Assembly (NCBI GenBank): GCA_020433785.1 | Contig: JAGRCC010000390.1 | Location: 1-5,967 of the forward strand | DNA from: Anaerolineae bacterium | GTDB taxonomy: Bacteria > Chloroflexota > Anaerolineae > 4572-78 > J111 | Direction of reading: 5' to 3' | Length of the DNA: 5,967 nucleotides | Shown here: one piece after another, positions 2,996 through 5,351 of the stretch | How the letters are laid out: the number at the start of each line of letters is the position of its first letter | How positions within the stretch are numbered: the stretch's first letter is position 1 | Made by a program: the position numbers and the translations under genes | Notes under the pieces: generated by a model | Told to the model about the DNA's origin: nothing | Databases searched by the model: none | The model's input: only the letters and a program-made list of their open reading frames with translations

Positions 2996-3544
2996 GTGAT
3001 TTTCCTAAAAAATAAAATCAAGTTGGTAATGACCGTGTGTGGTTTGGTTCTGGTCATAGCCGCCTGTTCTGGGCCTGAAGTGGCCGAACAAGCTGATAGA
3101 TCCGGCGGCAATATTCAAGTTCAAACGGCCACTGCCGAGCCGCCGGCCGCTACTAATGAACCAGTGACGGCTCCGGTACCAACGGCCACTGATTTACCAA
3201 CCGAAATTATTGAACCTGTCTCTCCCATTTCTCCCGCACCTACAATTGAGGAGAGTACTGTAAACAGTTTGGTTGAGACTATGAACCCGGTCCCCGGCAG
3301 TGAAAAAGCCCTGGCCGCCGCCATTAATGATCTGGCGCCGCAGATTAATGTGGCGCTTGACCAAATAACGCTGGTGTCAATTGAGGCCAGAGAGTGGTCT
3401 GACGCCAGTTTGGGCTGTCCCCAAGAAGGCTTTATGTATGCCCAGGTGATTACGCTCGGTTACTTAATTGTGCTGCAAGCCGATGGCGTTGAATACCAAT
3501 ATCACACCAATCAATCCGATACGGCAATTCTGTGTAAAGAATAA
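2996..3544 (+). CDS. small lipoprotein with Thr/Pro-rich linker and a C-terminal domain recalled from Chloroflexota
   Basis: I start this gene at GTG 2996 because GGAGG (2984-2988) is 7 bases upstream and the product then has a clean type II signal peptide: basic n-region KNKIK, a hydrophobic core, and lipobox VIAAC with the lipidated cysteine at residue 24. In-frame ATG 2957 would lengthen the n-region and has no ribosome site. The 182-residue protein continues with a low-complexity linker rich in Pro, Thr, Ala and Glu (about 27-100), then a compact domain (about 101-182). That domain contains EAREWSDASLGCP, YAQVITLGYLIVLQADG and EYQYHTN, and ends ILCKE. Cys141 and Cys180 are the only other cysteines of the mature chain and could form a disulfide. 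I know this pattern from uncharacterised lipoproteins of Chloroflexota, but it has no assigned function. The gene lies 70 bases after yggU, so it may be cotranscribed or have its own signals. Confidence 0.85.
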   Translation: MIFLKNKIKLVMTVCGLVLVIAACSGPEVAEQADRSGGNIQVQTATAEPPAATNEPVTAPVPTATDLPTEIIEPVSPISPAPTIEESTVNSLVETMNPVPGSEKALAAAINDLAPQINVALDQITLVSIEAREWSDASLGCPQEGFMYAQVITLGYLIVLQADGVEYQYHTNQSDTAILCKE

Positions 3545-3579: not shown

Positions 3580-3599
3580 CCCAGTTGACTGAAATTGGG
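3580..3599 (+). other. weak hairpin downstream of the lipoprotein gene
   Basis: CCCAGTT (3580-3586) can pair with AATTGGG (3593-3599), seven pairs including one G-U, around a 6-base loop. No T-run follows, so it is not a convincing rho-independent terminator. It could mark the 3' end of the lipoprotein message by protecting it from decay. Confidence 0.3.
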
Positions 3600-3612
3600 A
3601 CATAAGTAGGTA

Positions 3613-3644
3613 TTGACTTCCCGCCTATTATCTGAGATGATAAT
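3613..3644 (+). promoter_or_regulatory. candidate promoter with a palindrome over the -10 region
   Basis: TTGACT at 3613-3618 is a good -35 element. Two -10 candidates follow: GATGAT at 3636-3641 (17-base spacer, 4 of 6 matches) and GATAAT at 3639-3644 (20-base spacer, 5 of 6). The region is palindromic: ATTATC (3627-3632) mirrors GATAAT (3639-3644), with ATCT-G-AGAT (3630-3638) nested within, as in an operator. A second TTGACT lies 28 bases upstream at 3585. Transcription from here would run into the boxA-like motif and hairpin series. The call rests on consensus matching only. Confidence 0.4.
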
Positions 3645-3671: not shown

Positions 3672-3688
3672 TGTTCTTTAAACAATCC
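3672..3688 (+). promoter_or_regulatory. boxA-like antitermination motif
   Basis: TGTTCTTTAAACAATCC closely resembles known rRNA leader boxA elements (E. coli TGCTCTTTAACAATTT; Gram-positive type TGTTCTTTGAAAAC). No rRNA gene lies in the window. The motif stands between a candidate promoter and a terminator, where a Nus-factor antitermination signal would make sense. A chance match in a T-rich stretch is possible. Confidence 0.35.
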
Positions 3689-3753: not shown

Positions 3754-3798
3754 ATGGAATTCGTCACAAAAGCTCAAATCAAGGCACTTAGCGGCTAA
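3754..3798 (+). CDS. possible 14-codon leader peptide overlapping the terminator
   Basis: An ATG at 3754 opens a 14-residue frame, MEFVTKAQIKALSG, ending with TAA at 3796-3798. GGAG at 3744-3747 is 6 bases upstream, a workable ribosome site. The Shine-Dalgarno and start codon lie within hairpin H2, the body covers the 5' arm of the terminator, and the stop codon lies in the terminator loop. A ribosome on this frame would therefore compete with both hairpins, as in attenuation. The peptide has no run of a regulatory amino acid, it matches nothing I know, and so short a frame may be chance. Confidence 0.25.
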   Translation: MEFVTKAQIKALSG

Positions 3799-3815
3799 TG
3801 GTTTGAGCTTTTTTT
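3768..3815 (+). terminator. rho-independent terminator
   Basis: AAAAGCTCAAA (3768-3778) pairs perfectly with TTTGAGCTTTT (3802-3812). Seven consecutive T (3809-3815) follow and overlap the end of the arm. The loop is rather large at 23 bases and contains a small palindrome, TTAGC-G-GCTAA (3788-3798). It ends whatever transcript starts in the 3545-3767 gap, or the lipoprotein transcript, before the Tyr/Asn-rich gene. Confidence 0.75.
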
Positions 3816-3863: not shown

Positions 3864-3896
3864 AAAACAAAAACTTATGAGTTAAGGAGAGACGTC

Positions 3897-4223
3897 ATGA
3901 AAAAATTTATTACCCTCGCTTGTGCAGCGGTCTTGGCCGTAACCATGTTGGCCATCACCACTCAAACCAGCCAGGCCAGCGGGCCTAATAGCAACTATAA
4001 CCATTACCACAATAACTACCAAGGTTACAACTATTCAAACTACGGCCACAAAAATTACGGCTACAACTATTATAACTCCCGCTACAACAACTATAACTAT
4101 GGACGAACCTATTATCCCCGATATTACAGTAACTACTACAGCCAATACTGCTACAAAAATTACTATAACAACCGCGCCCACTACGGTTACTCTTACCAGC
4201 CCGCCTATTATCGCTATTACTAA
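3897..4223 (+). CDS. secreted tyrosine/asparagine-rich low-complexity protein
   Basis: This 108-residue protein starts at ATG 3897; AAGGAG (3884-3889) is 7 bases upstream, so the longer frame from 3843 is not needed. It begins with a textbook Sec signal peptide: MKK, a hydrophobic stretch to about residue 20, then TTQTSQA with probable cleavage after Ala27. By hand count the 81-residue mature part has 30 Tyr (37%) and 17 Asn (21%). The rest is mostly Gly, Ser, Arg, His and Gln, with no Asp or Glu, a single Cys, and repeated NYN, NYY and YNNY units. It is therefore basic, disordered-looking and export-directed. I recognise no family. Such composition suits a surface, matrix, adhesive or amyloid-like component, or a substrate for tyrosine cross-linking; all of that is inference. 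It stands alone between its own promoter and a strong terminator, convergent with the pentapeptide gene. Confidence 0.85.
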   Translation: MKKFITLACAAVLAVTMLAITTQTSQASGPNSNYNHYHNNYQGYNYSNYGHKNYGYNYYNSRYNNYNYGRTYYPRYYSNYYSQYCYKNYYNNRAHYGYSYQPAYYRYY

Positions 4224-4286: not shown

Positions 4287-4322
4287 AAAAAAGAGACAAG
4301 GCTTTAAAGGCCTTGTCTCTTT
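4287..4322. terminator. bidirectional rho-independent terminator between convergent genes
   Basis: AAAGAGACAAGGC (4290-4302) and GCCTTGTCTCTTT (4310-4322) are perfect 13-base complements around a 7-base loop. On the - strand the stem is followed by six T and then ATTTG, ideal for ending the pentapeptide gene transcript, whose stop codon is 25 bases away. On the + strand the tail is only TTT then CATTCG, but the long stem should still help end the Tyr/Asn-rich gene transcript, 66 bases after its stop. Confidence 0.92.
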
Positions 4323-4346
4323 CATTCGTTATCAAAGTAAAACCTA

Positions 4347-5351
4347 TCAGGTCTCATCATCGTCTTCTTTACGATTTTTTATCCTTGACAGGGAGGCCGC
4401 CAGCCCCGACGCAGTAGCTCGACGCTTTTCCTTCTTGCCCGCCGGTCGAGGGGGAAGCGTCAGAGGCTTGTAGAGTTTGCCATCCGGCATGGTCGCTTTT
4501 TCCAATTTCCTGGCCAAAGCCAACTGCGTTTCGGTCACTTTAGCATTGGTCAGATCAGCTTGACTCAAATTGGCCTGACTTAAGTCGGCCCCTTCCAGAT
4601 CGGCCTCTCGCAGGTTGGCCTGGCTCAAATCGGCTCTAACCAGGATCATCTTCTTAAGATTAGCGCCTTGCAGATTGACCTCAGTCAATTTTGCATCGCT
4701 AAAGTTAACCGGCCCTAAATTAGAGCCGCTGAAGTCATTTTTACTCAAATCGGCCCCATCGAAACTGACGCCTTTTAACTTGACCTCGGCCAGCGTAATA
4801 TTTGTTAAAATAGCGCCATCTAACACCGCCTGGCTCAAATCGCAGCCCTTTAAGTTCGCGCCGTTAAGATTAACTCCTGTTAAGTTGGCCTGACGCAAAA
4901 TGGCATTTGATAGGTCGGCCTTGTCCAAATCGGCTTCGCGTAAGTCCGTCTCGGCTAAATTGGCCCCTTTCAGTTTAGCATCTTTGAAGGCTGACCAACG
5001 TAACCGAGCTTCATAAAAATTCGCCTCACTCAAGTCGGCCTCATTGAAACTGACCGCATCCATTCTTGCGCCGATCATCGCCACCCCGACCAAGCTGGCG
5101 CGATCAAGGTTAGCGCCCTGCCAGCGTGTTTTGAATGCATCGATGTTGGTTAAATCAGCCCCGCTCAAATTGGCCCGCAGCAGATTCGCGCCACTCAAAT
5201 TGGCCCCGCGCAGATCGCTTCCGCTCAAATCAACGCCGCGCAAATCGATTTGGCGGAGATCTTGCCCGCTCAAATCTTTATGGCGTAAATCCGGCACTTC
5301 ACCTGCCAGACGGGCTAATTTAACGATTTGAATGATGTCTTCACGTTTCAT
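4347..5351 (-). CDS. pentapeptide repeat protein
   Basis: This 334-residue protein is dominated by A(D/N)LxX pentapeptide repeats. The central Leu/Phe/Met position recurs every five residues from Leu22 to Leu277 without loss of register, about 52 units; weaker units (for example NIDAFKTRWQG and VAMIGARMDAVSF) keep the spacing. Such repeats fold as a right-handed quadrilateral beta-helix, here about 13 coils and roughly 60 angstroms long. There is a short N-terminal helix (1-20) and, after the cap-like LARKLEKATMPDGKLYKPL, a tail of about 35 residues that is basic (KKEKRR) and ends in acidic DDDET. No signal peptide or membrane segment is seen, so it is probably cytosolic. Qnr/MfpA relatives mimic DNA and bind gyrase, but most family members have no known role, and I do not assign one. 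ATG 5351 is preceded by GGAAGG and AAGGG (5356-5368). It has its own promoter upstream. Confidence 0.93.
   Translation of the reverse strand: MKREDIIQIVKLARLAGEVPDLRHKDLSGQDLRQIDLRGVDLSGSDLRGANLSGANLLRANLSGADLTNIDAFKTRWQGANLDRASLVGVAMIGARMDAVSFNEADLSEANFYEARLRWSAFKDAKLKGANLAETDLREADLDKADLSNAILRQANLTGVNLNGANLKGCDLSQAVLDGAILTNITLAEVKLKGVSFDGADLSKNDFSGSNLGPVNFSDAKLTEVNLQGANLKKMILVRADLSQANLREADLEGADLSQANLSQADLTNAKVTETQLALARKLEKATMPDGKLYKPLTLPPRPAGKKEKRRATASGLAASLSRIKNRKEDDDET

Follow-up and report, generated by a model that had tools for sequence, protein, structure and literature searches.

A conserved leader precedes the genes of a lineage-restricted family of tyrosine-rich, predicted Sec-exported proteins in uncultured Anaerolineae

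The analysed stretch of DNA (hereafter the window; 5,967 nt, contig JAGRCC010000390.1 of the Anaerolineae bacterium assembly GCA_020433785.1) carries a gene for a tyrosine-rich protein of 108 aa (ORF 3897-4223, forward strand). Upstream of it lie pgeF, yggS, proC, yggT, a DUF167 gene and a lipoprotein gene, and downstream a pentapeptide-repeat gene and a gene encoding an FtsX-type permease. The YGGT, DUF167, Pentapeptide and FtsX assignments are Pfam matches, while pgeF, yggS, proC and the lipoprotein gene are presumed identities, named from sequence and gene order. The following features were distinguished around the Tyr gene:

3594..3610, + strand: block upstream of the -35 hexamer, ATTGGGACATAAGTAGG, identical in the orthologous locus L001 and partly kept in locus L084
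3613..3641, + strand: sigma-70-like promoter TTGACT-17-GATGAT (9 of 12), with an equivalent promoter at six of six family loci
3672..3684, + strand: boxA-like element TGTTCTTTAAACA, matching GYTCTTTAANA at 10 of 11 positions, in the same place at five of six loci
3754..3798, + strand: possible leader ORF of 14 codons after GGAG, a weak candidate whose L001 counterpart has 4 codons
3769..3815, + strand: conserved intrinsic terminator of the leader, with a 13-bp main stem and a U-tract, 81 nt before the ATG
3884-3889, + strand: ribosome-binding site AAGGAG (from sequence; GGAGA kept in six of six family leaders)
3897..3977, + strand: predicted signal peptide of 27 residues, cleaved after SQA (inspection, AlphaFold, family comparison)
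3978..4223, + strand: mature Tyr/Asn-rich part, 81 residues, including the stop codon (translation, composition, codon comparison, family)
4289..4323, either strand: bidirectional terminator separating the Tyr gene from the convergent pentapeptide-repeat gene (both-strand terminator scan)
4347..5351, - strand: pentapeptide-repeat gene, convergent to the Tyr gene at four of the six loci read

The mature part of the protein includes 30 Tyr, 17 Asn, 7 Ser, 6 Gly, 5 Arg, 4 His, 2 Lys and one Cys, contains no Asp or Glu, and the net charge of the protein is +7. In the window's eight remaining gene stretches, 24 of 1601 residues (1.5%) are Tyr, and at this background rate the chance of finding at least 30 Tyr in 81 residues is P ~1e-33. 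The sequence features point to export through the Sec pathway, since the MKK N-terminus, the helix (residues 2-21) and the SQA cut, recognized by inspection and in an AlphaFold model, are kept in the relatives. In this model, built on seven sequences (pLDDT 45.8, pTM 0.19), the signal helix is the sole part predicted with some confidence and nothing folded was seen beyond it; the mature protein is predicted to be intrinsically disordered. A first-pass annotation of the same DNA had described the ORF, its Tyr/Asn-rich composition without acidic residues, a ribosome-binding site and a signal peptide, and had suggested a low-complexity protein. Translation and residue counts, the AAGGAG motif, the family-wide conservation of the signal peptide and the skewed composition with predicted disorder all agree with that description. 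Its further ideas, a fibre, matrix or adhesive role, dityrosine formation and an abundant product, are conjectural.

The loci corresponding to the window were sought by scanning genome contigs for ProC, and the best 80 of 379 relatives were kept. Among these 80, a Tyr-rich ORF (threshold: 11 Tyr in 50 residues) occurs only at the locus of the best relative, L001 of Anaerolineae bacterium HKST-UBA12 (ProC 83% identical), where it is syntenic with the window gene, with the lipoprotein gene on one side and the pentapeptide gene on the other. The two Tyr-rich proteins share 69% identity over aligned positions (51% in a BLASTP alignment with gaps), and the L001 orthologue retains the frame, the signal peptide and the C-terminus, both reading frames being open throughout. 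Across 80 aligned mature codons, differences at the first, second and third positions number 20, 9 and 42, respectively, and 26 of the 55 identical residues are encoded by different codons. The Nei-Gojobori values for the mature part are pN 0.158 and pS 0.956; because pS is saturated, no pN/pS ratio is given. The Tyr-rich ORF is a real coding gene under purifying selection; the first-pass annotation had argued for a real product and called for a selection check. It had also named two observations that would speak against a real gene, a lack of homologues with a conserved signal peptide and frameshifts in close relatives; these were looked for, and the homologues keep the signal peptide and the frames are intact.

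The fast-evolving lipoprotein gene (2996-3544; 55% identity to L001, compared with the much more conserved ProC) matched no family above the cut-off. The product of the pentapeptide gene (4347-5351) has a basic tail, KR.ATA.GL.A.L.RI, conserved in relatives of the order. Relatives of this gene in genomes G013 and G003 are not adjoined by a Tyr gene; the locus of G014 was not counted, its contig ending approximately 160 bases further.

Searched by itself against 5.8 billion proteins, the Tyr-rich protein gave no match at E 0.001. A two-row profile retrieved remote members at loci L084 (genome G012; E 5e-4) and L082 (G004; E 1e-3), and despite these weak E-values both Tyr genes are convergent to a related pentapeptide gene. 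Four-row and seven-row profiles added members P0002-P0005 and P0007-P0014. P0005 was matched by the four-row profile and not recovered by the seven-row one, although it is itself a row of the latter. The resulting set has 16 members, L001 having been admitted by synteny and L166 by its leader. Profile A7, built from it, has 13 rows, including P0014 (E 0.031) and omitting P0005, P0008 and P0013, all three of which are counted among the 16. P0006, at E 0.2, was too doubtful to keep, and the matches L083 (a LysM protein), L085, L118 and L119 were judged to be unrelated.

The members share a predicted signal peptide of 24-28 residues, a mature start of SGP, DGP, QGP or APP, a mature length of 78-101 residues (15 of 16; P0008 has 60) and a C-terminal Tyr or Trp (15 of 16, the exception again being P0008). 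Aromatic residues form 24-40% of their mature parts, which have 0-3 Ile/Leu/Val/Met residues and at most one Glu. All 16 contain at least one Cys, with a maximum of seven (six of them consecutive in L084), and 1-9 His; the window protein and L001 have one Cys each. Compared with shuffled sequences, the similarity of the mature parts to that of the window protein reaches z 13.2 for L001 and 4.4 for P0005, and lies between -0.1 and 4.1 for the other 13, so that kinship of the latter rests on the signal peptide, the profile scores and, where DNA is available, the leader and synteny. The mature sequences of this unnamed family drift, and composition is what is mainly kept.

Searched with the A7 profile, at least 49 of 396 genomes of the class match at E 0.01. 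Strong matches (E 1.2e-31 to 2.0e-23) occur in at least five genomes (G003, G011, G012, G004 and G001), all belonging to the 12-genome family of G001, i.e. at least 5 of 12 there; the next match has E 6.7e-8. At most 12 candidates per genome were scored in these searches, and absences are not firm. An A5 profile found a real member in G001 only among 400 genomes of the phylum. From the 44 genomes whose A7 matches are weaker (E between 6.7e-8 and 0.01), 17 loci were read; they comprise five genes of another Tyr-rich exported family, one Tyr/Asn-rich gene (L178), five LysM genes, one other, and five loci without a qualifying ORF. For the 13 A7 members, no match was found in Pfam-A at E 0.01, LysM included, nor among PDB sequences at E <= 1, and NCBIfam gave two weak single-member matches, one for the window protein (19.3 bits, where the cut-off is 120) and one for another member (acid_shock_Asr, E 0.0055). 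The Tyr-rich proteins are a lineage-restricted family within uncultured Anaerolineae. No published account of a tyrosine-rich protein in Anaerolineae was found in the literature searched, and no paper from a broader search on tyrosine-rich, secreted or low-complexity proteins of bacteria and Chloroflexi concerned such a family, as far as titles and the beginnings of abstracts show.

Alignment of the upstream DNA of the window and L001 revealed a leader with a kept promoter and a strong hairpin followed by a U-tract; no conservation of the leader-ORF peptide was seen in this alignment. A promoter and an intrinsic terminator precede all six family genes for which flanking DNA is available (window, L001, L082, L084, L106 and L166), with a promoter spacer of 17-18, 84-129 nt between the -10 hexamer and the terminator (five loci), and 54-101 nt between the terminator end and the ATG (six loci). 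When 19 genes were examined with one script, all six family genes showed the promoter pattern together with a terminator whose end falls 40-120 nt ahead of the ATG; among 13 non-family genes for exported proteins, such a terminator was found in L178 only and the promoter or boxA pattern in none. The same terminator position was seen in 29 of 446 control ORFs. The hairpin shows compensatory changes at 5 of 12 pairs, which is modest support because it comes from six sequences, two of them close. A consensus scan of the window was not above chance (5 promoter-like sites vs 6.2 in shuffles, 9 terminator-like vs 8.0); the case for the promoter and terminators rests on conservation. The conserved promoter-leader-terminator arrangement ahead of the Tyr genes qualifies the earlier description of a gene with its own promoter and terminator: both are present, yet the intrinsic terminator at 3769-3815 splits the promoter from the gene, and the 3' terminator at 4289-4323 reads on both strands and so also serves the convergent pentapeptide-repeat gene.

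The leader was also used as a search pattern on its own (TTGAC-N18,19-RATRAT-N25,34-TGYTCTTT, built on the window, L001, L082 and L106). It gave six matches in the 396 genomes of the class and one in the reversed control. Four of the six precede Tyr-rich genes; three of these are loci used to build the pattern, and the fourth (L166, in G003) encodes an exported Tyr-rich protein that had gone undetected in this genome with the A5 profile; a leader terminator is present there as well. The remaining two matches, one each in G016 and G075, are found opposite long ORFs. The G012 locus was not recovered because the L084 leader lacks the TGYTCTTT motif. At that sensitivity the leader accompanies the Tyr-rich protein and nothing else, and it stays with the Tyr gene in G003 and G011, where the gene does not adjoin the pentapeptide gene. 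The family is tied to a conserved leader that predicted one member blind. A chance ORF is ruled out by the codon-position differences, pN vs pS, and this discovery of a new member. Two other interpretations of the upstream region were discarded: a riboswitch (three Rfam matches in the window, with E up to 5 and far below gathering scores, none inside the leader) and the block AAGTAGG-TTGAC as the mark of a regulon (7 matches in five genomes vs 9 in the reversed control).

The motif TG[CT]TCTTT lies 27-32 nt past the -10 hexamer in the window, L001, L082, L106 and L166, and is absent from L084; it occurs in 0.5-2% of shuffles of the four leaders tested. It resembles boxA, whose gamma-proteobacterial consensus is given in a consulted excerpt as GYTCTTTAANA (PMC5725501). 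The match to this consensus is 11/11 in L001, 10/11 in the window and L166, 9/11 in L082 and L106 (shuffle P ~0.1 each) and 8/11 in L084 (P 0.42). When the pattern alone, TGYTCTTTNAAMA, was searched in G001, G004, G011 and G012, it gave 36 matches vs 20 in the control, and among the 30 with a locus, only the two ahead of the Tyr genes of G001 and G011 scanned positive for both a promoter and a terminator. The rRNA operons give a mixed comparison. TGYTCTTT is absent upstream of 16S in ten rrn loci, over up to 420 nt (271 nt in L123). Similarity of the Tyr leaders to the rrn leaders of the order is seen in L084, at the equivalent place (P 0.003), the other five leaders having P 0.05-0.37 (window, 0.37). 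The rrn element compared is TTAACAA[CA]T, which every one of the eight rrn leaders examined in this order (L120-L122, L124-L126, L133 and L134) carries 71-115 nt before 16S; it is a boxA candidate of the order, unlike the gamma-proteobacterial boxA. The location and the core sequence speak for a boxA-like signal, and we consider a functional boxA a tentative assignment, with odds somewhat below even. E. coli boxA complexes are described as opposing mainly Rho, not intrinsic terminators (PMC12691694). The further proposal that an exported structural protein has come under rRNA-type boxA/Nus antitermination, by way of a promoter-boxA-intrinsic terminator leader that would couple coat production to the ribosome-synthesis machinery, appears unlikely. 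Were the boxA assignment correct, the known reach of Nus-factor control would widen to include an intrinsic terminator and an exported protein of structural type.

Our preferred reading, to which we give a probability of roughly 0.5, is that the gene encodes a Sec-exported, disordered, cationic, Tyr-rich structural protein of the coat or extracellular matrix, cross-linkable and made by read-through of the leader terminator, possibly with the aid of boxA. Transcription would start at the promoter 3613-3641 and end at the terminator 3769-3815 unless polymerase reads through, which the boxA-like element (3672-3684) might promote. Once exported, the protein could self-associate and hold on to anionic wall polymers through Tyr stacking and Arg/His cation-pi contacts, and could be cross-linked oxidatively through Tyr and, in most members, Cys. 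The stretches read showed no gene for a peroxidase, a tyrosinase or export machinery.

The leader could instead be a free-standing small RNA, ~175 nt long and complete with promoter and terminator, the Tyr gene being transcribed from a separate promoter in the 54-101-nt gap before the ATG. Such an RNA would account for the complete promoter-to-terminator unit found at six of six loci, and the best promoter-like site in the gap scores 9/12 both in the window, where it equals the leader promoter, and in L084 (reached by 12% and 22% of shuffles). Against a gap promoter, the best sites in L082, L106, L166 and L001 score 6, 7, 7 and 8 of 12, levels reached by 61-100% of shuffles, and the gap of L082 is merely 54 nt long; against an independent RNA, the leader keeps company with the Tyr gene despite the changed neighbourhood in G003 and G011. 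We regard this explanation as improbable, though a serious one.

As to the function of the product, the protein might use Tyr, His and Cys to bind or store an extracytoplasmic metal or redox cofactor instead of building a coat, which would fit the Cys present in every member, as many as seven in one of them, and the 1-9 His. The window protein and L001 have a single Cys, however, aromatic content rather than a fixed ligand pattern is the main conserved trait, and no metal-transport or oxidase gene was seen adjoining in the stretches read, which makes such a function quite unlikely. A small cationic secreted effector, e.g. the precursor of an antimicrobial or signalling peptide, would be in line with the size, export and charge (+7, no acidic residue) of the window protein, yet it is very unlikely, as the aliphatic residues for an amphipathic helix, a constant active motif and an adjoining immunity or dedicated export gene are all absent.

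The structural coat or matrix protein that we prefer has look-alikes in known Tyr-rich proteins forming dityrosine in coats and walls, such as the oocyst-wall proteins of Eimeria and the Bacillus spore-coat proteins CotC and CotG. Likened by description, they are Tyr-rich, extracellular and structural, the last being proposed for the present family; they come from unrelated lineages, and for the present family such cross-linking is a proposal. The sulfur globule proteins SgpA, SgpB and SgpC are exported and rich in Gly, Asn and Tyr. The portion of the source consulted presents them as small envelope proteins of periplasmic globules in Allochromatium vinosum (PMC11267869), a description resembling the role proposed here; the Tyr-rich family, unlike them, belongs to another phylum, and a sulfur-oxidation context was not seen in the stretches read.

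The leader can be compared with boxA-type (rrn, lambda nut) and LoaP-type leaders, in which the transcript carries a recognition element close to its 5' end and then a terminator that polymerase has to pass (PMC5725501, PMC12691694); the Tyr-gene leader likewise has a candidate element near its 5' end and a downstream terminator. The boxA targets named in the same excerpts are rRNA, lambda, suhB, a toxin-antitoxin gene and CRISPR arrays (PMC5725501, PMC12691694), whereas the Tyr gene encodes an exported low-complexity protein and its terminator is intrinsic. The protein and its leader resemble known Tyr-rich structural proteins and attenuated leaders, but membership of either group was shown by none of the tests run. 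Proteins of this kind might help to explain coat or floc properties of Anaerolineae, and the family members may be regarded as short natural Tyr-rich materials.

Exported LysM proteins of the same order, at L105, L107 and L196 (genomes G005, G013 and G014), end in a Tyr/Cys-rich tail (..YDYTGYYY..YSYTCGY..). Like the Tyr-rich family, they have a signal peptide followed by A[PS]... and this C-terminal tail; unlike it, they contain LysM domains (matched to PF01476 at L105 and L107, by eye at L196) and have no leader. By analogy they are a hint that stretches of this type have their place at the cell wall, with the qualification that the composition may be convergent. They may represent a similar material in wall-anchored form.

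Further Tyr-rich genes were noted among the weaker matches. The central ORFs of L176, L177, L179, L180 and L184 encode a second small exported Tyr-rich kind of protein, with the motif ..GYVF/YPGSGYN[KR]VCMYS.WNCSYRFVPPYP.SG[YW].., and four of these five are preceded by a terminator-like hairpin ending ~200-230 nt before the ATG. The central ORF of L178 (G016) encodes an exported, repetitive protein of 141 aa, rich in Tyr, Asn, Asp and Arg; a terminator ends 75 nt before its ATG, without the promoter or boxA pattern. Finally, L116 (G004) encodes an exported LysM-like protein with tandem MGMDQQPYMGYPQ repeats.
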